Assembly (NCBI RefSeq): GCF_001552785.1
Contig: NZ_KQ959495.1
Coordinates: 1 to 45,000 of the forward strand
DNA: 45,000 nucleotides
Source of the DNA: Atopobium deltae
GTDB lineage: Bacteria; Actinomycetota; Coriobacteriia; Coriobacteriales; Atopobiaceae
Reading direction: 5' to 3'
The notes below the pieces were generated by a model. That model searched no databases and was not told the origin of the DNA. It worked only from the letters and a program-made list of their open reading frames with translations. The position numbers and the translations under genes were made by a program. Of this stretch, positions 33,435-45,000 are shown in pieces. Numbering within the stretch: the first letter of the stretch is position 1; each line of letters starts with the position of its first letter.

Positions 33435-34217
33435 TTACAGCTGCCCGTAGTAAGCGTTTGCTCCATGCTTTCTAAAGTAATGCTTGTCGAGATAGTACTG
33501 AGGAATCTCTTGTTGTGCGCCGCGCCTCAGTGTTTCTGTCCGCTCAGCCATTTCACAAACAGTTTCGATCACTTTGCCTACCTCGACCGATTTTATCGCC
33601 GAGGATCCCCACGAAAACGTTCCGTGATTGCGAACAAGCACGCCTGGCGTTGCCACAGGATCAATGTTTCTTGTGGTAAACGTTTCTACGATGACATGAC
33701 CGGTGTTCTTCTCGTACGCCTCTTCTACCTCGGTCTGCGTTAAATCACGCGTACAGGGGATGGGGCCGTAAAAATTATCGGCATGCGTGGTTCCATACAC
33801 GGGGACATCTCGGCCTGCCTGCGCCCATGCTACGCCTTGGATGCTGTGGGTATGTGTAATGCCTACGACCTGCGGGAAAGCTGCATACAGCACCACATCA
33901 GTAGGCAAATCGGAGGACGGACGAAGCCTTTGGTCGCCAATAATGCGCCCTTGTGTGTCGCAGACAACCATGTCGGCTGGCTTCATTGCCTTGTACGATA
34001 CGCCGCTTGGTTTAATGACGATAACCCCGAGGTCACGGTTAATTTCGGCAACGTTTCCCCAGGTGAGCGTCACGAGACCCAGTTTTGGAAGCATGCAGTT
34101 TGCTTCGCAGACGCGCTGCTGCATGTCGAGCACTTCTCGAGAAGCTAAAACGCGCGGATCGATGGTCGATGCTGTTGTGCCAGTCGATCCACATGAGCCT
34201 TGCTTAGTTAAACTCAT
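33435..34217 (-). CDS. ulaF: L-ribulose-5-phosphate 4-epimerase of the ascorbate pathway
   Basis: A 260-residue class II aldolase-fold epimerase converting L-ribulose 5-phosphate to D-xylulose 5-phosphate, the last step of ascorbate catabolism. LGLVTLTWGNVAEIN and KPSGVSY form the phosphate site; ITHTHSIQG and VRNHGTFSWG carry the zinc His ligands; THADNFYGPIP is the family loop. About 25 extra Ser/Thr-rich residues precede the core of the usual 228-230-residue enzyme. ATG 34217 has AAGGAGG six bases upstream and lies 14 bases inside the end of ulaE, so the two are coupled. It is the last gene of the ula operon. AraD is the alternative name. Confidence 0.92.
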   Translation of the reverse strand: MSLTKQGSCGSTGTTASTIDPRVLASREVLDMQQRVCEANCMLPKLGLVTLTWGNVAEINRDLGVIVIKPSGVSYKAMKPADMVVCDTQGRIIGDQRLRPSSDLPTDVVLYAAFPQVVGITHTHSIQGVAWAQAGRDVPVYGTTHADNFYGPIPCTRDLTQTEVEEAYEKNTGHVIVETFTTRNIDPVATPGVLVRNHGTFSWGSSAIKSVEVGKVIETVCEMAERTETLRRGAQQEIPQYYLDKHYFRKHGANAYYGQL

Positions 34218-35064
34218 AGCCGGCCTCCTTGAAAATCGGCATGATGAATCCCAGCGCATCCTTAACCTCGGCCACGGGGTCATCGGACGTCTCGCTCCAC
34301 ATTTCGAGCATGAAGTTTCCTTCGTAGTCCAAACGCTTCAGCGTCTTAAAACAGCCGAGAAAATCGACGCAGCCCGAGCCCCAAGGCACTTCTTTAAACT
34401 TACCAGGAAAGTCAGGCGTTACCTTGAGCGTGTCCTTAACATGAATGCCGGTGATTTCGTTAATGCCCAACTCCAGCTCTGCAAGCGGATCGTTAGCGGG
34501 CCACGCGCACAAGTTTCCTAGATCGGGATATACCTGCAGCCACGGCGAGTGGATTTGGCGCTTAATGGTGTTGAATTTTGTGATCGAATTGATGAAGGGG
34601 TCGTCCATGATCTCGATCGCAAGCATGACTTCAGCGGCGGCTGCCATTTCCGTTGCTTTCTGAAGATTCTCGATAAAATACGCGCGGCTCAAGGAGGTCT
34701 TCTCTTCATAGTAGACATCATATCCCGCAAGCTGGATAGTACGTATGCCTAATTGCGCAGCTAAATCAACGGCTTGCTGCATGATGCGCATGCCCTGCGC
34801 ACGCACCATAGGATCGGCTGAGCCAAAAGGATAACGCCTGTGCCCACTCAGGCACATGGAACGCATGGCAACACCTTCATCGAAGATGGCATCGAGCACT
34901 TCTTTTCTCTGCTCACGAGTCCACGAAAGACGGCCAAGGCGCTCATCACTTTCGTCTACGGACATTTCGACAAAATCAAATCCTAAGGAACCTGCGATGG
35001 AGAGGCGTTCTTTCCAACTGATATTTTTTGGCAGGGCCTTTTCATAAATTCCTAAACGAGCCAT
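34204..35064 (-). CDS. ulaE: L-xylulose-5-phosphate 3-epimerase (L-ribulose-5-phosphate 3-epimerase)
   Basis: A 286-residue TIM-barrel epimerase that interconverts L-xylulose 5-phosphate and L-ribulose 5-phosphate. It begins LGIYEKALPKNISWKERL, as in E. coli UlaE, and has FVEMSVDESDERLGRL, MCLSGHRRYPFGS, AIEIMDDPFINS, VYPDLGNLCAW and IHVKDTL, which contribute the metal ligands and catalytic Glu residues; length is typical. The ribosome site is weak (GATAGGG). The 257-base gap to ulaD is filled with repeats, yet the gene order argues for one transcript. Confidence 0.94.
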   Translation of the reverse strand: MARLGIYEKALPKNISWKERLSIAGSLGFDFVEMSVDESDERLGRLSWTREQRKEVLDAIFDEGVAMRSMCLSGHRRYPFGSADPMVRAQGMRIMQQAVDLAAQLGIRTIQLAGYDVYYEEKTSLSRAYFIENLQKATEMAAAAEVMLAIEIMDDPFINSITKFNTIKRQIHSPWLQVYPDLGNLCAWPANDPLAELELGINEITGIHVKDTLKVTPDFPGKFKEVPWGSGCVDFLGCFKTLKRLDYEGNFMLEMWSETSDDPVAEVKDALGFIMPIFKEAGYEFN

Positions 35065-35091
35065 GTTATAACCCTATCTCGTACGAACTTA

Positions 35092-35190
35092 CCTACTGTT
35101 ACATGCGGCGTCGCCTGCGATGTTACCCGCGGTTACTTACGGCGTTACCCGCGGCGTTACCCGCGGCGGTTACCCGCGACAATACAAATA
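35092..35190. repeat. Tandem GTTACCCGCGGC repeats between ulaD and ulaE
   Basis: At least four near copies of GTTACCCGCGGC (about 35122, 35144, 35155 and 35168) are flanked by degraded copies (GTTACATGCGGC, GTTACTTACGGC, ATACCTGCGGC). They occupy the middle of the 257-base gap, the longest inside the ula operon. Beyond it lies a GAGCCTC/GAGGCT hairpin near 35263-35281. The repeats could form RNA structure or be neutral expansion. Confidence 0.75.
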
Positions 35191-35321
35191 CCTGCGGCAA
35201 TGCAAACAAATGGGCCCATGATCAATCCCATGCGGCGGGAGATACATTGGGCCCAGGTGTTGAGCCTCTGACATGAGGCTTCTATCTCATTGAGTCTTCT
35301 AAGCTGACCTCTTGGCTGAGG

Positions 35322-35960
35322 CTATGACCACAGCTCAGCGATTTTTGCTTGAAATGCGTTCGCGGCAGCACAAGGATCGGCCGCTGCCGTCATGCCACGA
35401 CCAGCAATGAAGCAATAGACGTCGATTCCTTCAAACAGATCGAGAGTATCTACCGAAAGGCCGCCAGTGACGGATACCTTAAATCCCATGTCGATAAGTT
35501 TTTGGACGCGATCAAGGTCTTTTTGGCCCCAAGTTTGACCAGCAAGCAACGCATCGCGGCTCTGGTGATAAATAGTATGATCAATGCCAGCATCAAGCCA
35601 AGCTTGCGCTTGCTCAAAGGTCCAGTCACCATAAAGCTCTACTTGGACCGACTCAACCTCTTTGGCGGCAGCCTTCATGGTTGGAATCGTAGCGCAGCAG
35701 ATGCAGGTCATAAAGTTTGCGCCTGCAGACGCAAGATTTTTTGCAACGGTGCCACCTGCATCGGCGCATTTTGCATCAGCAACAACAAGCTTGTTAGGAT
35801 ACAGTGCCCTAAAACATTTGACGGCCTTATCGCCTTCTTGGAGCAACAAAATTGTTCCGACTTCAAGAATGTCGACCACATCTCCTACAGCACGGATATC
35901 AGCAAGGGCAGAAGGAAGATTATTGTGATCGCAGGCAATTTGTAATAACGGTTTTGCCAT
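35322..35960 (-). CDS. ulaD: 3-keto-L-gulonate-6-phosphate decarboxylase
   Basis: A 212-residue member of the orotidine-decarboxylase superfamily turning 3-keto-L-gulonate 6-phosphate into L-xylulose 5-phosphate with Mg2+. Residues match the E. coli enzyme: Asp11 (QIACDHNN), Glu33 (ILEVGT), Asp62 and Lys64 (VVADAKCADAGG), and the His/Arg pair in TIYHQSRDA at 132 and 135. The phosphate loop SVTGGLS and AGRGMT follow. ATG 35960 has GAGG upstream. It lies 15 bases after ulaB. The hexulose-phosphate synthase family is close, but the operon settles the assignment. Confidence 0.95.
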   Translation of the reverse strand: MAKPLLQIACDHNNLPSALADIRAVGDVVDILEVGTILLLQEGDKAVKCFRALYPNKLVVADAKCADAGGTVAKNLASAGANFMTCICCATIPTMKAAAKEVESVQVELYGDWTFEQAQAWLDAGIDHTIYHQSRDALLAGQTWGQKDLDRVQKLIDMGFKVSVTGGLSVDTLDLFEGIDVYCFIAGRGMTAAADPCAAANAFQAKIAELWS

Positions 35961-35975
35961 GGATATACCTCACCA

Positions 35976-36281
35976 CTACTTTACGGGGAACTTCTCGAGA
36001 ATTGTACTTTCCTCGATCAGCTTCTTTACCTCAGGGACGCTCATGACGTTCTTGACGCCAATGACGGGCGTGCCCGAAGCAGCAACGTCGTCAAACATGT
36101 TGACAAAATTAAGGGAGGTAAAAACAACGTCATAGCTTTTGGCAATACTTTTGCCTTCAGCAATGGAGGTGTGGTGACCATCGACGACGGTATAACCAAG
36201 CTGGTTGAGTGCCTTTGTTGCGGTCTGCTGAAGCATCAGAGAAGTGCCAGAACCGTTTGCACATGAAATTAAGATACGCAC
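35976..36281 (-). CDS. ulaB: Ascorbate PTS component IIB
   Basis: A 101-residue IIB protein that passes phosphate from UlaC to incoming ascorbate. The phosphorylated Cys is residue 7 in ILISCANGSGTSLM, and HHTSIAEGKS and LNFVNMF are family features. The start is GTG at 36281, supported by AAGGAG six bases upstream. A hairpin separates it from ulaA. Confidence 0.94.
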   Translation of the reverse strand: MRILISCANGSGTSLMLQQTATKALNQLGYTVVDGHHTSIAEGKSIAKSYDVVFTSLNFVNMFDDVAASGTPVIGVKNVMSVPEVKKLIEESTILEKFPVK

Positions 36282-36343
36282 AACTATCTCCTTAGATTGA
36301 AAAAAGATACCGAAAGCGAACTAGATACAATAAAACAAACAAT

Positions 36344-36377
36344 CGCAGCACCTACCACATGCGTAGAGGGTGCTGCG
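36344..36377 (-). terminator. Intra-operon hairpin between ulaA and ulaB
   Basis: CGCAGCACC (36344-36352) pairs perfectly with GGTGCTGCG (36369-36377). On the minus strand it is followed by the T-rich ATTGTTTGTTTTATTG rather than a clean T run, so it may be a leaky terminator or an RNA-stability element that sets the UlaA to UlaB-D-E-F ratio. Confidence 0.6.
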
Positions 36378-36391
36378 ACACAAGGCAAAAG

Positions 36392-37870
36392 TTAAGCTTT
36401 CTTGTACAACTCCTTGTACTTCTCGTAATCCTCTACCTCGAGGAAGTAACCCTCGGGGTTACGACGGTACTGAAGCTGAGGAATAGCAATAAGCAAGACG
36501 ATGACAATACCAATGCCCACGAAGGGGATGAACTTCATGACGGCAGCCATGAAGGGCCAGACGGTTGCCCAGTCGAGCATGCCCAGGTAGCCACCGTATT
36601 GCGCAAGGCCAATCCAGCTTGCAAAGACAGCAGAGCCGACTACCTGCAAAATACCAGAGATGAAGGGCAGAATGATTGCTGCCTTATAGCCACCACGGTT
36701 GTTGGCAAAGACGCCGATAGCAGCGTTGTCGAAGAATACAGGAATAAAGCCTGCGATAACGATGGTGGGCGATTTGAAGAGGATGAGTGCTGCAATGGCA
36801 AGGAATTGTCCGATAGCACCAGACAAAAAGCCAATGGTCGAAGCATTGGGGGAGCCAAATGCAAAGGTAGCAGCAATGTCGATACCAGGAACAGCGCCAG
36901 GCAAAATGGTGTTAGAAATACCCTGGAACGAAACGGTCAGCTCACCAACGAAGGTGCGGACGCCGAGCTGAAGGATGGCAAGGTAAACAGCGAAGTTCAA
37001 GCAGGTCTCGATGATGTAGAAGACGAAGTCCTTCTCGGGAGCCAATGCCTTGATGCTTACGAGGTAATCTTTTCCAAGAACGGTCAGGATGATACCAAAA
37101 AAGAGAAGCATCAAAATCGAGGTAGAGACCATGTTCTCGTTAAAGATGGAAAGCCAACCAGGAAGCTGCATGTCCTCCATGCGCTTAACTTCTTTTCCAT
37201 CCTTCGCCTTGAACTTCTCGGCAAGCTTAGCAAAGAAGGTCAGACCAAACATTTGCTGGTGAGCAACGGCAAAGCCGCCGCCGTCGGTGAGGTCCTGGCA
37301 AATACCAATGGTGAGGTTCGAACCAACGGCCCAGTACAGACCAAGGATGACACTCATGATGGCCAGAACTTCCCAACGACCAATGAAGGGGTAGCAGAAC
37401 AAAATGATCCAAAATGCGGTTGAAGCCTGCTGAACCTGGACATGACCAGTGGTAAAGATCGCGCGCAGCTTCGTAATTTTGTTAAAGCGTACGAGCAAAA
37501 TGTTGATCAAAAATGCGCAGAGCAGCAGTAACATGACGTCACCGAATGCGCGACCAAAAGTCTCCTCAACGCCGGCGGTCACGGCATTTTGACCGAAATA
37601 GGGGTCGATAACCATAGCGCCGAGGTTAAAGCGATCCTTAAGACCGACCAAAATAGGACGGAAGTTTTTGACGAGGCCACCAGAACCAACGGCCAGAATG
37701 AGGTATCCGCAGGTTGCCTTGAGGAAGCCTGCCAAGCAGGAATACCAAGGTTTTTTAAGCAGGATATAACCGATTAAAACGATAAAACCAATCATGAACG
37801 CAGGTTGGGTTAGGATGTTCTTCGCAAAGAAAATCCAGGCGCTCAAAAGCGTATTGAGAAATGCATCCAT
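36392..37870 (-). CDS. ulaA: Ascorbate PTS permease component IIC
   Basis: A 492-residue membrane permease with about eleven helices that imports L-ascorbate while it is phosphorylated. Family text includes FFAKNILTQPAFMIGFIVLIGY, DPYFGQNAV, TGHVQVQQAS, DGGGFAVAHQQM and PNASTIGFL. The protein ends in a cytoplasmic tail (GYFLEVEDYEKYKELYKKA). Length is slightly above the 465 of the E. coli protein. ATG 37870 follows AAGGAGG. The gene is flanked by ulaC and ulaB as expected for a split PTS. Confidence 0.95.
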   Translation of the reverse strand: MDAFLNTLLSAWIFFAKNILTQPAFMIGFIVLIGYILLKKPWYSCLAGFLKATCGYLILAVGSGGLVKNFRPILVGLKDRFNLGAMVIDPYFGQNAVTAGVEETFGRAFGDVMLLLLCAFLINILLVRFNKITKLRAIFTTGHVQVQQASTAFWIILFCYPFIGRWEVLAIMSVILGLYWAVGSNLTIGICQDLTDGGGFAVAHQQMFGLTFFAKLAEKFKAKDGKEVKRMEDMQLPGWLSIFNENMVSTSILMLLFFGIILTVLGKDYLVSIKALAPEKDFVFYIIETCLNFAVYLAILQLGVRTFVGELTVSFQGISNTILPGAVPGIDIAATFAFGSPNASTIGFLSGAIGQFLAIAALILFKSPTIVIAGFIPVFFDNAAIGVFANNRGGYKAAIILPFISGILQVVGSAVFASWIGLAQYGGYLGMLDWATVWPFMAAVMKFIPFVGIGIVIVLLIAIPQLQYRRNPEGYFLEVEDYEKYKELYKKA

Positions 37871-37908
37871 CGTACGTGCCTCCTTTGTCTTTAACGCTTT
37901 TTGTGTAC

Positions 37909-37945
37909 TAACTCTTGCCTAACTTTTGTGTAACGCTTGCCTAAC
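37909..37945. repeat. 22-base tandem duplication between ulaC and ulaA
   Basis: TAAC-TCTTGCCTAAC (37909-37923) and TAACGCTTGCCTAAC (37931-37945) are offset by 22 bases. The second copy contains the ulaC stop codon, so the duplication touches the coding end. Confidence 0.7.
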
Positions 37946-38408
37946 GTATGCTTGCTACGAGCGCTTGAAAGTCCTCGATTGTGTGCGTGAGCTTGATCTT
38001 CTCGATAAGCTCTTCATCCATGAGAAGTTCCATCAAGCGCTGAATATTTGAAAGATGTGTGTCTGGATCTTGAGCTGCCAAGGTAAAGAACAGCTCAGCT
38101 TCAGGACGCTCGCCCGTCTTCTCGTCAAAGAACGTGACGGGCTTCTTAAACTTGGTAAAACTAATAGCCGTGCCCAATACCCCAGGATTTGAAGACATTG
38201 CGTGAGGCATGGCAATACCAGGGGCAATGACGATGTAGGGGCCATGCTCGTTGACACAGTCGATAACAGCGTCTACATACTGATCTGTTACAAAACCCTG
38301 GCGTTTAAGTGCTTCGCAGCTTATGCGAATGGCTTGCTGCCAATCTTGCGGCTGCTGCGAGGCATAGTGCACAAGCGAATTATCTAAAAAATACTGAAGC
38401 ATGCTCAT
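37941..38408 (-). CDS. ulaC: Ascorbate PTS component IIA
   Basis: A 155-residue mannitol/fructose-type IIA protein relaying phosphate from HPr to UlaB. The phosphorylated His lies in IAPGIAMPHAMSSN near residue 70, and GVLGTAISFTKFKKPV and LFFTLAAQDPDTHLSNI are usual IIA features. ATG 38408 has GAGG upstream. It lies 12 bases after ulaG. Confidence 0.94.
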   Translation of the reverse strand: MSMLQYFLDNSLVHYASQQPQDWQQAIRISCEALKRQGFVTDQYVDAVIDCVNEHGPYIVIAPGIAMPHAMSSNPGVLGTAISFTKFKKPVTFFDEKTGERPEAELFFTLAAQDPDTHLSNIQRLMELLMDEELIEKIKLTHTIEDFQALVASIR

Positions 38409-38420
38409 TGTGGCCTCACC

Positions 38421-39488
38421 TTATAAGAACGAGTCGTAGTACAGGTCGGTCTCATAATCAAAGGCATCATGAAAACCACGATCGTACATGTACTCAATAT
38501 GGTCGGTGTCACCGGGGTAGTCGTAGCGGCCGCCTACCTGCCAGATGAAGGGCTTAAATTTGTACTGCATGCGGTCACGACGATACTTCCAGAGGTAGAC
38601 AATCTCTTTTGGATCGGCCATGAAGTTGGTCCAGATGTCGTAGTGCGTCGGGATAATGACTTTGCACTGCAGGGCCTCAGCAACCTTGAGGACATCGGAG
38701 CTCGTGAGCTTATCGGTAATACCGATGGGGTTCTCGCCATATGCGACGCAAGCGATGTCGATCTGGTGCTCTTTGCCGTGCTTGACGTACATGTTTGAAT
38801 AGTGAGAGTCGCCTGAGTGATAGACGGAGCCGCCATTAGTTTTGACCAAGTAGTTCAGCGCGAGCTCATTCATGTCGCGAACGGGCTTGCCCTTGAGCGA
38901 CTCGTTGGGGTCGTCAATGGTCAAAAGCATGGTGCGGTCGAATGACTCGAGGCCGATGACCTCGACGTCCTTAACCTTGATCGACTCGTTGGGGTGAAGC
39001 ACGACAACGCGCTCGGCGGGAACGCCCCATGCGATCCATTTATCGGCAACATCCTGCGGGCCAACGAAGGTAGCGTTCGGGCAATTTCTGGTTACAACCG
39101 CTGCGGTCGTTTGGTCCAGATGGTCGGAGTGCGAGTGCGTCACGCACAAAATGTCAATGTCGCGCACCTCAAATGGATCGATGACAAATGGCTGATTGCG
39201 GCGATTTGGTTGGAGGTTGCGCACACCACTCATGCGCATCATCTGGTGACCTTTTTTCATTTCACCCTTGCCAATGGTCTGCTTGCCCGTCTGGTTCCAC
39301 ATGTCGATAACCACATTGGTTCCCTGGTCAGACTTGATCCAAAGACCCATGTTACCGAGCCACCACATCGAGAGTGTTTTCTCGGGAATCTTGGCCGCCG
39401 CAATTTCTTCAGTCAGCCAAGTTCCCCACTCGGGAAAGGTTTTGTTTAACCAAGACTCTCTCGTGATTTCGTCAATTACACGCCCCAT
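38421..39488 (-). CDS. ulaG: L-ascorbate-6-phosphate lactonase
   Basis: A 355-residue metallo-beta-lactamase-fold lactonase opening L-ascorbate 6-phosphate to 3-keto-L-gulonate 6-phosphate. The metal motif THSHSDHLD is near residues 116-124. ITRESWLNKTFPEWGTWL, MWWLGNMGLWIKS, VYHSGDSHYSNMYVKHG and FIWQVGGRYDYPGD follow the E. coli protein closely end to end. ATG 39488 has AAAGGA five bases upstream; the much longer open frame upstream crosses the promoter and is not coding. It is the first gene of the operon. Confidence 0.96.
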   Translation of the reverse strand: MGRVIDEITRESWLNKTFPEWGTWLTEEIAAAKIPEKTLSMWWLGNMGLWIKSDQGTNVVIDMWNQTGKQTIGKGEMKKGHQMMRMSGVRNLQPNRRNQPFVIDPFEVRDIDILCVTHSHSDHLDQTTAAVVTRNCPNATFVGPQDVADKWIAWGVPAERVVVLHPNESIKVKDVEVIGLESFDRTMLLTIDDPNESLKGKPVRDMNELALNYLVKTNGGSVYHSGDSHYSNMYVKHGKEHQIDIACVAYGENPIGITDKLTSSDVLKVAEALQCKVIIPTHYDIWTNFMADPKEIVYLWKYRRDRMQYKFKPFIWQVGGRYDYPGDTDHIEYMYDRGFHDAFDYETDLYYDSFL

Positions 39489-39618
39489 AGATATCCTTTC
39501 GGCCATACGATCCTTACAATTCCTGCAATCTTGCAATCGCCAAAATGTACACGCATAGACGTACATTTCTAAAACAAAAGCATGCGACTGCCCGTGCTCT
39601 AAAACACTTATTAAATTA

Positions 39619-39647
39619 ATTATATGTGCGGATAAATATGGTGACAA
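39619..39647 (-). promoter_or_regulatory. Promoter of the ula operon
   Basis: Read on the minus strand, TTGTCA (39642-39647) and a perfect TATAAT (39619-39624) are 17 bases apart, the best promoter of this region. Transcription should start near 39612, about 125 bases before ulaG. Confidence 0.8.
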
Positions 39648-39666
39648 TATGGAGTTACGTCTCTTT

Positions 39667-39734
39667 TGAGCGCTTTTGGGCGAATTATTCACATATTCGC
39701 TCATTAACGTGGTACATTCGCTCATATATATGAT
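39667..39734. promoter_or_regulatory. Probable UlaR operator cluster in the ulaG-ulaR spacer
   Basis: ATTCGCTCA occurs at 39695-39703 and 39716-39724, exactly 21 bases apart, and inverted partners lie to the left: TGAGCG at 39667 and GGGCGAAT at 39678. The cluster is upstream of the ula -35 box and overlaps a weak candidate promoter for the regulator (TTAACG 39704, TATATG 39727, 17 bases apart). The geometry fits a DeoR-family multimer that represses both directions through looping, or auto-represses itself; ligand and mode are inference. Confidence 0.6.
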
Positions 39735-40719: not shown

Positions 40720-41300
40720 ATAGTTTTTCATTTTTTAGGAAATGATTTTTCCAAGATGCAGCGTGCGGCTGTGCTCGAGATCATTGATGAGGCTACGAAG
40801 GGCGGCACGGTTGACATCCATGATACGTCACTTCCAGACTTCTCGGAGGCAGTTCTGAACCGCACGCTTGGGTATGTATCGCGCGCGAACTATGCGCGCG
40901 AAAAGGGCGTGAGTTTACCGCCAAGATTCATGACATGCCATCGAGGCAGGATAACCGTGTGACCGAGTGCCAGGATGCAAGCCTCGTCTGGATGGCAAAT
41001 GGCATCTGGAATTGCTCGGCAGATATGATGATGGGCTTTGACCCCGAGCTGGGGGCGCTACGCAAGAGCACGACCGTCCTCCCAGACAAGGAATCGTCTG
41101 AGTCTGTGCATGTGAAGCCCGATGGCACGCCTATCACCTTCTGGCAGTGGATTGATTCTCTCGTTCCGTATGAGGGCGGGCGCGAGCTTCTGGCCAAGCT
41201 TGCAGGAGCAACCCTTCGCAACCGCGTGAACTGGCGCTGTATGGTCACCCTGTACAACAAAACAGGGCAAACGGCAAGAGCGCGTTCCTCGACCATCTGT
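40720..41300 (+). pseudogene. Frameshifted fragment of a phage/plasmid-type primase-helicase
   Basis: Two broken frames make one D5-like primase/helicase. The first (ATG 40756, KMQRAAVLEIIDEATKGG) loses frame near 40915; restoring one T of the run gives AKIHDMPSRQDNRV. The second continues ASLVWMANGIWNCSADMMM, LGALRKSTTVLPDKES, ITFWQWIDSLVPYEGGRELL and LRNRVNWRCMVTLYNKTGQ, the usual order before the helicase Walker A. A second lost base in an A run near 41271 breaks it; restoring one A gives NGKSAFLDHLY, the Walker A of superfamily 3. The homology stops near 41300 at an opposite-strand gene fragment, and the helicase C-terminus is missing. No start with a ribosome site exists. Confidence 0.7.
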
Positions 41301-41477
41301 ATGCTCAAGCAAGAAGTCCGGGTCAGAAATGATGTAGAACTGGAAAATTTCATCCCCCGCCCCGAAGTCCCCGTTTATCAGGTCGAGGTTGCGGATGGTT
41401 ATGTCGTTTGCAAGCACCATGCCGCCTACCTGCCGTGCCAAGTCCTCATAGGTCTTGATGTAGTTCGAGTAGTTCAT
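41296..41477 (-). pseudogene. 5' fragment of a small mobile-element gene
   Basis: The minus-strand start MNYSNYIKTYEDLARQVGG with GGAGG six bases upstream is a real translation start, followed by DEIFQFYIISDPDFLLEHTD, which looks like the N-terminal half of a conserved small protein of Gram-positive conjugative elements. After about 60 residues the frame runs antisense through the primase fragment to 41058 and loses all similarity, so the natural 3' half has been replaced. Its ATG overlaps the upstream gene's TGA (ATGA), showing the two were once coupled. Confidence 0.65.
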
Positions 41478-41719
41478 GAAAAGCCTCCTTTTTTCATGAG
41501 AACCCGGGAGCCGTCAGGCGACTTTTTTACTAAAGAGATGATTACCACCGTGAAGCGTTTGCCGTAGGCGAAAATCTGCATGAACTCCTTAGTCGTAGGC
41601 ATGACAAGTTCGTTTGCTGGCGGGGCTTTTGTTATCAGGAAGTTGATAGCAATTCCATTTAGCGCTATACCGCAGGCAATGAGGTAAGAGCGAATAGTGT
41701 TACGAATGATTTTTAGCAT
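41474..41719 (-). CDS. Small membrane protein of a mobile element
   Basis: An 81-residue protein with one hydrophobic segment near the N-terminus (SYLIACGIALNGIAINFLI), then TTKEFMQIFAYGKRFTVVIISLVKK. GGAGG lies upstream of the ATG at 41719, and the stop overlaps the next start. I do not recognise a function, but the coupling and style fit accessory genes of integrative elements. Confidence 0.65.
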   Translation of the reverse strand: MLKIIRNTIRSYLIACGIALNGIAINFLITKAPPANELVMPTTKEFMQIFAYGKRFTVVIISLVKKSPDGSRVLMKKGGFS

Positions 41720-41864: not shown

Positions 41865-43016
41865 CTATTCGTAATGTCCGGCTTGGTCGACAACCCATTT
41901 TCTACCTGTGACCTTGTTTTCGTAGTGACCACGGTCTTCAGTGTGAGTAACTGCATCGTGGTGTACGGTCTTGTACTGCGGATAGAAGGTGTAGCTTACA
42001 GGAGTATCGGCGAGAATCATTTTCTTGGAATATGCTCTTGCTTCCGCGTCACTGCAAGCAACGTGGCCGTCGCTGAAGACATATTTGATTCCGATTTCTA
42101 CTTGTTCATCCCAAGCAGGTTTGTCGGTTACAGTAACGACGTTAGGAACCCACACCTTTTCGGTGGTGTTTTCCCAGTGACCCTTTTCAGGCACCCAGGT
42201 TTTAGCCTTTTCAGCAGGTTTGTTGTTTGCAGGAGCCGAAGGCTGGCTTGCAGACTTTGGAGCCTCTGTTACAGTAGCCTTTGCCTCAGTTTCAGTAGAG
42301 GCTTGTGCCTTTTCAGTGCTTTCAGCAACGTTTGCTTTCGCATCTTCTGAAAGGTGAGCGTTAGCCTTGGTGTTGGCTTCGACTTTGCCCAAGATTGCCT
42401 TTCCGGCATCACCCTTAAGGGAGTTGTCGCCGTTTTCGATGGCAGTCTTCGTTGTGTCGGCGATTTCCTTGATGTCCTTTTCAGTCACCTTGTCGGCAGG
42501 GATTGTCTTGTCAAGCTTGACGTTGACAGTCGCCTTATTCTCGGCATCGCCCTTCTTGTCAGTGGACTTGATGCTGACTGCGATTTCCTTGCTTTCCTTG
42601 GCAGGCTTTGCAATGGAACCGTCGTTGTTGATGACACCGGTTACGGTGACTTTGTATTCGCCAGGCGATACTTCGACTGTGTCGGTCTTCTTGCCTGAGT
42701 CTACGGCGTGGTAGAGGTCTACAGGCTCTTCACGCGTGTCGGTGCTCTGTACGTGGACGATAGCAGGAGTCGATGCCTCGGTTACTTTGTCGTCAGCTTC
42801 GACGTTGATGGTAACAGACGTCTTTTCAGTGTTAGCGGGAACTTCTGTGGTCATAGCAGATTTGCTGGACGCAGTATCAGCGGGTTTTGAGCCGAATACG
42901 CCAGTCATTCCGGCAACTAAGAGTGCAATTACGGCTATGATTGCGATGGCTACGGCAATCGCTGTTTTGGCGTGGTTTTCAGTCCACACTTTCATTGTGT
43001 TGATTACGTTTTTCAT
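41865..43016 (-). CDS. Membrane-anchored repeat protein of a mobile element
   Basis: A 383-residue protein with one N-terminal membrane helix (AVAIAIIAVIALLVAGMTG, residues 24-42), a long Lys/Thr/Ala/Glu-rich outer region with an Ig-like part (VDLYHAVDSGKKTDTVEV, GEYKVTVTGVINNDG), and a C-terminal Trp/His/Tyr region: KAKTWVPEKGHWEN, EKVWVPNVVTVTDKPAWDEQ, a Cys-containing YVFSDGHVACSDAEARAYS, and HHDAVTHTEDRGHYEN with VVDQAGHYE. Such tandem WVP..HYE motifs occur in Gram-positive conjugative elements; function is unknown. The ATG at 43016 has GGAGG 8 bases upstream; the upstream frame is noise. Confidence 0.78.
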   Translation of the reverse strand: MKNVINTMKVWTENHAKTAIAVAIAIIAVIALLVAGMTGVFGSKPADTASSKSAMTTEVPANTEKTSVTINVEADDKVTEASTPAIVHVQSTDTREEPVDLYHAVDSGKKTDTVEVSPGEYKVTVTGVINNDGSIAKPAKESKEIAVSIKSTDKKGDAENKATVNVKLDKTIPADKVTEKDIKEIADTTKTAIENGDNSLKGDAGKAILGKVEANTKANAHLSEDAKANVAESTEKAQASTETEAKATVTEAPKSASQPSAPANNKPAEKAKTWVPEKGHWENTTEKVWVPNVVTVTDKPAWDEQVEIGIKYVFSDGHVACSDAEARAYSKKMILADTPVSYTFYPQYKTVHHDAVTHTEDRGHYENKVTGRKWVVDQAGHYE

Positions 43017-43082
43017 ATTGTTTACCTCCGTGAACGATGTTCTTATATTTATGAAGCAAGTTTTTGCTTCACGCATACTCCC

Positions 43083-43227: not shown

Positions 43228-44181
43228 CTAGAAGGAACCCCTGTTTTGCTTTTTGAGTTCTTCGGCAGCGACTCCAGAATTATAGGCGGCTCTCGCGGCG
43301 GCGTCAGCGCCTCTGTTGATGGCTTGGCTGTTCGCCAGATTGACCACAAGATTTCCCATCTGGATGAGGTTGGAGGCTTTTTGCAGTGCAATCATCTTCT
43401 GCTGGTTGTGCAGGCACTGGTCGACCCCATTCTTGATGGATGACAGCTCTGTTATCACCTGCTCGCGGTACTTGTCCTCCTTGTAGGTCTTCACCATTTC
43501 CTTGACGGTGTCTGCCTCGTGGTTTTTTACATACTTTATGAACGCCGAACAGCAATCGATGGCGTAGTAGTCGGCTGGGTACCAAGAGGCGGTCTCATCC
43601 TGCATCGTGGCGACTATGGCATGAACCTCGTCTGCAAGTTCCTTGCGCCGCTGAATTATCGATTCATTGTTAGCCCTTATTGCTCTGTTCGCTTCGTCAG
43701 CATCACCTTGTTGCTTTGCGTTGTACTTGTCACGGATTATCTTTGCGCCTATGGATGCCACAACGAGGGCGCCGACTTTAAAGAGGGATAGATTAATGAG
43801 AAATGTTAAAAGCAGCGCCACAAGCAAAATCTTTCCAATTTTTAAAAATGTTTTGTTTTGCTTTACCTTTCCAAGCGCGAAAACGCCGACGGATGCCAGA
43901 GCGAAGATGAAGGTTACCGGATCGCCGCCGAGCAGGCAGATGAGGCCGGCGATTCCGGCGAATGCCATGCCAGAGACAAAAAGGCCGTACTCGGATTTGC
44001 CACTGATAGTATTCGTCTCGATAAGGTTTGGTGCAACCTCGTTTCGAAACTTACGCTCCAGCCCCCAGTACTGGTTGAGCTTGTTGCTGGCATCCTGTAG
44101 ATACCCATTGACGACATAGAGTCCATCGAGAAGTTCTGGACCCTCGGGGTATGCGATTGATGATGAGACGCTTTCACTCAT
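43228..44181 (-). CDS. Multi-pass membrane protein with helical cytoplasmic tail, mobile element
   Basis: A 317-residue protein of unknown function. Residues 65-150 hold three or four membrane segments (GLFVSGMAFAGIAGLICLLGG, TFIFALASVGVFALG, ILLVALLLTFLINLSLF, VGALVVASIGAKII). The rest is helical and charged (ADEANRAIRANNESIIQRRK, MQDETASWYPADYYAIDCCS, GVDQCLHNQQKMIALQKAS), ending in an Ala/Asn-rich tail. The ATG at 44181 has AGAGGAA. It lies between the 56- and 383-residue genes on one minus-strand transcript. Confidence 0.75.
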   Translation of the reverse strand: MSESVSSSIAYPEGPELLDGLYVVNGYLQDASNKLNQYWGLERKFRNEVAPNLIETNTISGKSEYGLFVSGMAFAGIAGLICLLGGDPVTFIFALASVGVFALGKVKQNKTFLKIGKILLVALLLTFLINLSLFKVGALVVASIGAKIIRDKYNAKQQGDADEANRAIRANNESIIQRRKELADEVHAIVATMQDETASWYPADYYAIDCCSAFIKYVKNHEADTVKEMVKTYKEDKYREQVITELSSIKNGVDQCLHNQQKMIALQKASNLIQMGNLVVNLANSQAINRGADAAARAAYNSGVAAEELKKQNRGSF

Positions 44182-44325
44182 GTAATTTCCTCTTTCTTAT
44201 AGAGTTTGATGAATCAGTTGCTCCGCCTAATCGTAAGGAAACACGACCTGTATAGGCAGAAAATAACCCATTCTATTTGTTATAACTCCTAATAAATGCC
44301 AATCGGTGCATGTGGATTCACTTCT

Positions 44326-44496
44326 CTATGAGAAGCCCGTTATAAGCAGAACAGAAACCGAAGATGAAGTCTTGGAAGTCTTGCCAACTTCATTCTTTGT
44401 CAGGAACGTCTTCTTCATAAGAGCAGCAATCCAGCTCGAATACTCCTGCTGTGTCATTACTCCGTTTGACTTGGTCTTCTTCATCGTTTCTTGCAT
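44326..44496 (-). CDS. Small hypothetical protein, first gene of the mobile operon
   Basis: A 56-residue protein starting MQETMKKTKSNGVMTQQEYS with SSWIAALMKKTFLTKNEVG in the middle. The ATG at 44496 has the strong AGGAGG 8 bases upstream and is the first start after the leader hairpin. No domain is recognised. Similar tiny Gln/Lys-rich proteins with a TQQEY segment occur beside conjugation genes, but this is only resemblance. Confidence 0.6.
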   Translation of the reverse strand: MQETMKKTKSNGVMTQQEYSSWIAALMKKTFLTKNEVGKTSKTSSSVSVLLITGFS

Positions 44497-44521
44497 ATCT
44501 ATTTCCTCCTCATCTTTCTCG

Positions 44522-44583
44522 AAAAACAAAAAACGGACGGCAAACCGATAGGATTTCTCCTAAAGGTTCACCGCCCGTTTTCC
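44522..44583 (-). promoter_or_regulatory. Leader hairpin with T run, possible attenuator
   Basis: On the minus strand a long imperfect hairpin, AAAACGGGCGG with CCGTCCGTTTT, an inner AACC/GGTT pairing and a TAGGA-TTTC-TCCTA tip, ends in TTTTTTGTTTTT. It lies about 100 bases after the promoter start and about 25 bases before the ribosome site of the 56-residue gene. This placement, inside a leader, suggests conditional termination rather than the end of a gene. Confidence 0.6.
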
Positions 44584-44687
44584 ATTCGTGCGTTATGAAC
44601 GTTGGTCGCTTTTAAGTGCTTCCCCAAACTGAAAAACAGGGTCGCTCAAGTGCGATGATCGCTCGTGAACATATCTAATTTTGTTTT

Positions 44688-44716
44688 ATTATACCACGAG
44701 TCACGTTCGCAATCAA
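44688..44716 (-). promoter_or_regulatory. Strong promoter of the mobile-element operon
   Basis: On the minus strand TTGATT (44711-44716) and a perfect TATAAT (44688-44693) are exactly 17 bases apart. Predicted transcription starts near 44681, giving a leader of about 185 bases before the first gene. Confidence 0.8.
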
Positions 44717-45000
44717 GACTTTTTAAGCCTCTAAACTGCTCAAACACAGGCTTGAAAACACCCATTTTTAATAACTCCCGACACAGGCAAGGCATCCAAG
44801 AAAGCCGGGCACAGAGAAGAAGGTAGAAAATATTTTTTTGAGAGCAGCGTGTGGAAAATGAGGTGCCAGTTTTCCACACCCCGCCCTTTCCCTGTGCCCA
44901 GCTCGTCTTCTTCGTGTGGCGAGCGGCGCGGCAGCGCCGTGAGGAACACGCTCTCTCTTTGTTCTTGAAATCAAAAGAGCGAGGAAGCCGTCTGGCTAAC
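44717..45000. other. Non-coding edge with two dyads, possible origin or transfer site
   Basis: No supported gene. GTGTGGAAAA (44849-44858) and TTTTCCACAC (44870-44879) form a perfect 10-base inverted repeat with an 11-base loop; each arm contains TTTTCCACA, one base off the DnaA box TTATCCACA. A second dyad, CGGCGC-GGCA-GCGCCG, lies at 44924-44939. Strong short dyads beside an element's operon fit an oriT or replication origin, but no relaxase or initiator gene is in view. Confidence 0.45.

Follow-up and report, generated by a model that had tools for sequence, protein, structure and literature searches.

The window analyzed here, a stretch of 45,000 nucleotides from Atopobium deltae (contig NZ_KQ959495.1), carries near its end a promoter-like site on the minus strand, followed by a leader of ~185 nt, a long hairpin with a U-tract, and the ribosome binding site (RBS) of a truncated xis-like gene. 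Together with its relatives in Collinsella vaginalis and Gordonibacter sp. Marseille-P4307, this leader makes up what we call family A. Its features, in the order of transcription, are as follows.

44716-44688, minus strand: promoter-like site with an extended -10 element (TTGATT-17-TGgTATAAT), found by consensus scan; TG-N-TATAAT is also present in C. vaginalis and Gordonibacter.
44508..44682, minus strand: conserved leader RNA of family A, terminator and U-tract included (mean column identity of 94% across the 3 sequences of alignment A2).
44665..44670, minus strand: GUUCAC, the 5′ strand of candidate antiterminator helix P0, pairing with GUGAAC at 44571-44566.
44597..44664, minus strand: structured 5′ domain with helix P1 (GAGCG at 44664-44660, CGUUC at 44601-44597).
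44530..44581, minus strand: terminator hairpin with an outer stem of 17 bp, an inner stem of 5 bp and a GAAA loop (arms 44581-44565 and 44546-44530).
44522..44533, minus strand: U-tract UUUUUUGUUUUU, from reading of the sequence.
44511-44499, minus strand: RBS; the first start codon is the ATG at 44496.

This arrangement is that of an attenuator with an intrinsic terminator, and it bears out the original prediction, which had described an attenuator-like leader with its terminator just ahead of the first RBS. The hairpin region has a folding energy of −39.2 kcal/mol (z = −6.6), and the whole leader is also strongly folded (z = −4.7); in both cases, 0 of 200 shuffles were equally stable. A simple terminator scan listed 0 sites in the window, probably because the stem is interrupted by an internal loop. 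TTGATT-17-TATAAT was the sole promoter-like site in the consensus scan of both strands of 43500-45000; the match is at chance level (1 found versus a mean of 1.6 in shuffles) and not significant alone, and the promoter call is based only on consensus and conservation. The leader is expected to start at about 44682. No Rfam 15 family reached its gathering score anywhere in the window.

Within the window's family, a search of 140 genomes found the leader in the window's own genome alone. Across the class (396 genomes, loose cutoff of E ≤ 1), 170 genomes had some match, and three leaders stood out: that of the window, that of C. vaginalis (genome G383; 98% identity, E = 1e-155), and that of Gordonibacter (G351; 81% over query positions 20-242, E = 5e-50). 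The next-best match had an E value of 0.0016 over 38 bases. A leader-derived pattern found 2 stretches in genome contigs, one in C. vaginalis (NZ_LT838844.1) and one in Gordonibacter (NZ_UWPD01000001.1). The family A carriers represent three genera and three families of one order. Leader DNA had no match among plasmids and phages; in viral contigs, the terminator core occurred in 1 stretch (L033) and the 5′-domain pattern in 0. An RNA model of family A run over 33 loci returned the three known leaders and, beyond these, 3 weak matches (E between 0.03 and 0.3). Between the window and Gordonibacter, 58/63 positions were identical in the terminator and U-tract and 73/93 in the 5′ domain, compared with 20/37 in the promoter stretch, 101/170 upstream of the promoter, 23/33 around the RBS, 42/110 in the first part of xis, and 27/202 beyond it. 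Because identity peaks in the leader and terminator, the RNA is the most conserved part of the locus, even with different genes behind it.

In the C. vaginalis element (locus L031), the leader is followed, in order, by genes for an 86-amino-acid (aa) Tn916-Xis protein, a 556-aa primase-helicase of the P4 type (D5_N/DUF5906), a NikA-like/MobC protein, and a MobA/VirD2-type relaxase. Having a relaxase (PF03432) and a mobilization protein, it is a putative integrative mobilizable element. The original prediction had assigned the leader to a mobile-element operon and suggested that it could time transfer. Both the link and a possible timing role find support in C. vaginalis, whose copy of the leader stands before those four genes. 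Control of transfer genes is not supported in the window itself, whose xis breaks off after 38 codons and is followed by cargo-type genes. A transfer-messenger RNA (tmRNA) gene lies upstream of the C. vaginalis leader (L031:7512-7876), and tmRNA was the only Rfam match at cutoff in L031 and in the Gordonibacter locus, L032. An 80-nt query from the tmRNA end (att) found no second copy in L031 or L094. One downstream open reading frame of the C. vaginalis locus was scanned; it had no Pfam match, and no integrase was found within that scan. A tyrosine integrase adjoins the related primase of genome G111. Upstream of a further leader described below, in G271, we noted a tmRNA 3′-end match below its cutoff (L050:1-50).

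The Gordonibacter leader precedes genes unrelated to those of C. vaginalis. Separately, the frame behind it (L032:7843-8304) is similar to the C-terminal portion of a methyltransferase-like gene close by (L032:5-790; 38% identity, 104 aa), as if the element had targeted the 3′ end of that gene. An RNA conserved even where the downstream genes differ, strongly folded, and equipped with its own promoter-like site and terminator would also fit a separate small RNA gene whose product acts in trans, be it on transfer, replication or some other target, with the genes behind it living on leak through the terminator. The island SGI1 offers a parallel: according to the part of PMC9299015 drawn on here, it needs a self-encoded small RNA, from a transcript with a terminator-like repeat near its promoter. 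We consider a small RNA gene unlikely at this locus; the ATG at 44496 lies only 25 nt past the U-tract, leaving little room for a second promoter, so the RNA is not wholly separate from the gene, and the order of leader, small gene and primase recurs in other elements.

This recurrence emerged from relatives of the C. vaginalis primase, which were present in 23/396 class genomes (25 matches at E ≤ 1e-10). We read the upstream DNA of the 12 matches whose primase was ≥41% identical, C. vaginalis included, and of two more distant ones, setting aside the remaining 11 (L053-L063). The same anatomy of promoter-like site, structured leader and long terminator was found in 6/12 loci (L031, L048, L049, L064, L050, and L065), and the first gene after the leader was a small xis-like gene in all but L065, where it was the primase frame. 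Pfam assigns the small gene of L031 and of the L050 locus (L082) to Tn916-Xis and that of the L048 locus (L079) to HTH_17; in the remaining loci it was called xis-like by eye. A leader also occurs at the two more distant primase matches, in G311 (L051) and G024 (L052). Six leaders (G250, G331, G098, G311, G338, and G024) constitute type B, carried by 3/137 genomes of one family and 2/140 of the window's family, with G331 coming from the primase search; the G338 copy has lost its U-tract. The leader of L050 represents type C and that of L065 type D.

Types A, B, C, and D share no detectable sequence. The RNA model of B returned the B leaders and their complements and then one match at E = 0.7; because the A and B models find only their own leaders and weak matches, sequence does not link the four types. 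For plasmid primase loci of Streptomyces and Gordonia, coverage was limited to the A and B RNA models. An Rfam search of 9 loci (E up to 1) gave 9 matches, all under their family cutoffs. The B leader was absent from viral contigs, plasmids and phages, as was the C. vaginalis primase from viral contigs. Counted by group, the primase matched 3/43 genomes of its own genus, 7/138 of the family of G250, and 4/65 of the family of G331, adding only L066 and L067. The stretch of L067 (L077) had no strong terminator in the scan, and the contig of L066 (L078) holds only ~100 nt ahead of the reading frame.

These comparisons bear on two further explanations. Terminators are common at element ends, and the hairpin could be an ordinary terminator of upstream transcription without regulation; with a promoter-like site upstream of the terminator in the type A to D leaders read, and the terminator lying between that site and the first gene, we regard this as very unlikely. 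Conserved stretches in the structured 5′ domain would suit a riboswitch or protein-binding leader that senses the state of the host, a reading that overlaps with attenuation. It too seems quite unlikely, given that no known class matches and that the sequence differs between the leader types of related elements, unlike what one ligand class would show.

With moderate confidence, we infer that the leader is a transcription attenuator, acting through an intrinsic terminator on excision, replication and mobilization genes much as the leaders of phage P4 or pIP501 do, with termination in vivo, a switch and a signal to operate it. Transcription would start at about 44682 and give a structured RNA of ~150 to 160 nt, with RNA polymerase mostly stopping at the U-tract of the strong terminator. 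Because the U-tract lies so close to the start codon, transcription from the leader promoter would reach the first gene and the genes behind it only by passing the terminator. For the intact relative, this would place xis, primase-helicase, mobC and relaxase under the control of the leader, and excision, replication and mobilization would be held low. Read-through would occur when an antiterminator fold is favored; in family A, the 5′ GUUCAC would pair with GUGAAC of the terminator 5′ arm to form P0.

The structures involved show some covariation. In family A, P1 reads GAGCG:CGUUC in both the window and C. vaginalis, and Gordonibacter has GCGUG:CACGU instead; pairing survives these two double changes. 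P0 is invariant in 3/3 sequences; one sequence breaks one pair of the helix next to P1. The terminator is nearly invariant among the three sequences and hence says little on compensatory change. In family B, the terminator has two double-change pairs and 98.0% of cells paired (2/500 shuffles as high), and the competing conformer has 99.4% of cells paired (1/500 shuffles as high). The competing helix at columns 93-99:123-129 is 100% paired and contains one double change: the column pair 97:125 is GC in three sequences and AU in three. Column 125 also pairs with column 182 in the terminator, so that a single change is matched in three places. Compensatory changes of the kind sought among relatives were therefore present in P1 of the window's family and in the terminator and competing helix of B, whereas the terminator of the window's family gave little information. 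Run on the B alignment, RNAalifold recovers the terminator; covariation contributes only −1.49 of the −77.58 kcal/mol. When the 3′ arm was removed, the 5′ arm paired upstream in all six leaders tested.

Several results weigh against attenuation by such a switch. Six of the 12 primase loci (L042-L047) had no such leader in the ~1.5 kb read, only weaker hairpins far upstream (−13 to −26 kcal/mol). As many pairs changed on both sides were reached by 53/500 shuffles in family A (three sequences only), by 44/500 for the B terminator, and by 72/500 for the B competing conformer, and the B covariations all divide the six sequences in the same way and may reflect one single event. Shuffled leaders paired the 5′ arm upstream about as often as the real ones (38, 10, 123, 61, 115, and 27 of 200 as high), and upstream pairing is therefore no evidence of a switch. 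The best single helix was likewise reached by 51 to 377 of 500 shuffles. Since competing-helix folding is no better than in shuffled sequences, the switch is one that we infer, and the antiterminator is drawn from one triple covariation in B and the invariant helix in A. Finally, all six B leaders share a 7-codon frame, MRG(C/Y)(Y/H/C)RE plus stop (alignment A1 columns 38-59; e.g., L085 and L093), which may leave room for a peptide in these leaders. It has no visible ribosome site and lies inside a conserved stem, which may explain its survival.

The signal is more likely to be an RNA or a protein than a leader peptide. The 8-codon frame MFTSDHRT given in the original prediction does exist, at 44672-44646 on the minus strand, with no ribosome site seen before it. 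Its start and stop codons are present in C. vaginalis as well (MFTSGNHT), but the ATG is missing in Gordonibacter, and its role as a leader peptide was not borne out. Even with the shared B frame, attenuation by ribosome stalling on MFTSDHRT is highly improbable. We also considered antisense control. In pIP501, the repR leader is attenuated by the convergent antisense RNAIII, which has its own promoter (PMC4981023, in the portion cited). The likeness to our leaders is a long leader with attenuation before a replication gene; the difference is that the consensus scan of the window found no opposite-strand promoter inside the leader, and looser rules gave only weak opposite-strand sites in 2/8 leaders. 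Antisense control of this kind is unsupported for want of a convincing opposite-strand promoter.

The remaining features of the element in the window lie on either side of the leader.

44849..44879, minus strand: inverted repeat GTGTGGAAAA..TTTTCCACAC upstream of the promoter, a block common to both relatives and putatively origin- or oriT-like.
44326..44496, minus strand: truncated Tn916-Xis-like gene; it matches the 86-aa protein of C. vaginalis over its first 38 codons (97%) and diverges from there, with the break at 44383.
43228..44181, minus strand: 317-aa predicted membrane protein, cargo-type, with relatives in five other genomes of the family.
41865..43019, minus strand: 384-aa surface-type protein, with relatives near primase elements in G098, G271, and G250 (28-32% identity, E = 3e-34 to 2e-38).
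41058..41477, minus strand: broken form of a small gene that recurs in 10 of the related elements fetched (under 11 locus names, two of which name one place), conserved over ~73 codons.
40824..41564, plus strand, opposite to the leader operon: fragment of a P4-type primase that shares 54% identity with the primase of the G311 element over 125 aa and overlaps the end of the broken small gene.

The window belongs to a 1.45-Mb genome in 35 contigs, and its own contig (C13) ends at 45000. The ~200 nt between the broken xis and the 317-aa gene (44182-44383) had no protein-level match among the fetched loci. Of the five relatives of the 317-aa protein, only that in G111 is known to lie near a primase element; searches of viral contigs, genome contigs and plasmids found no match. 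A 343-aa protein of Gordonibacter did not match the 384-aa protein significantly (E = 0.065) but did match its relatives in G098, G250, and G271. Among mobility genes of the window's copy, xis is cut and only a fragment of the primase was seen. With xis cut, cargo next and a primase fragment, the window therefore holds an element remnant, whose leader would gate cargo at most. The leader is probably the on/off brake of the element, of which the window retains a broken remnant.

Two side observations complete the description. Before the promoters of L048, L049, and L064, we noted by eye CCGTGTTCATCGGGGAGTA-like repeats and, around CGTTTATGAG, an inverted repeat, perhaps a replication origin or oriT. 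At 33435-39725, the window contains genes for PTS EIIC-GAT, PTS EIIA (phosphotransferase system), OMP-decarboxylase/HUMPS, a TIM-barrel isomerase, a class II aldolase and a metallo-lactamase-fold protein beside a DeoR regulator, a run that looks like what we take to be an L-ascorbate (ula) operon.

Attenuation of mobile-element operons is already known; these particular RNAs match no Rfam family. We found no published description of such a leader in the open-licence literature, judged mostly from titles and summaries. Translation-inhibiting drugs relieve the attenuation of Tn916 (PMC9632896, in the part cited); the Xis family (Pfam Tn916-Xis) and the tie between attenuation and element activation are shared, whereas the window's leader family has no conserved leader peptide. 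SGI1 is likewise a mobilizable island with a promoter and then a terminator-like repeat in its mobilization region; it differs in that, as far as the cited part of its source describes, its active RNA derives from a longer transcript, at the 3′ end, and relaxases are not among its mobilization proteins. A further precedent for the mechanism comes from a portion of PMC7366714.

The replication genes of the satellite phage P4 are controlled by premature termination involving the leader and CI RNA (PMC4825925, in the section cited). Here too, replication genes with a P4-type primase would be kept off by termination after an untranslated leader (the leaders here being predicted), and a possible further likeness lies in RNA segments complementary to upstream and downstream sites, in this case in type B: the segment CCCGUGG is complementary to copies on both sides that change together (a single covarying column). 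In family A, only short matches of this kind were found, and shuffles reached them. Unlike P4, the leaders described here have no Rfam match and have a strong intrinsic terminator with a U-tract, and the element carries a relaxase and is not a phage satellite. P4-like RNA control would be in keeping with the genes present and with the three-way complementarity seen in B. As a special case of the attenuator, the terminated leader RNA might enforce termination in trans on incoming or extra copies, setting copy number and excluding elements of the same type, with A to D as specificities. B- and D-type leader elements do occur together in G250, at two places (L079 and L083); a single genome with two leader types proves nothing, however, no Rfam family was above cutoff in the leaders, and we give this immunity a low probability. 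The broader proposal is similarly tentative and at present doubtful: mobilizable elements of the Coriobacteriia may carry interchangeable attenuator RNAs of at least types A to D, each an immunity or copy-control specificity, with the RNA blocking in trans the excision and replication of resident or incoming elements of the same type, as in P4 but in elements mobilized by conjugation.

Something must set when such elements excise, replicate and transfer. The leaders described here, which match no Rfam family and occur in three families of one order ahead of xis-like, primase and relaxase genes, are a concrete candidate for the switch. If they do act in trans, they would constitute a natural exclusion system between elements.
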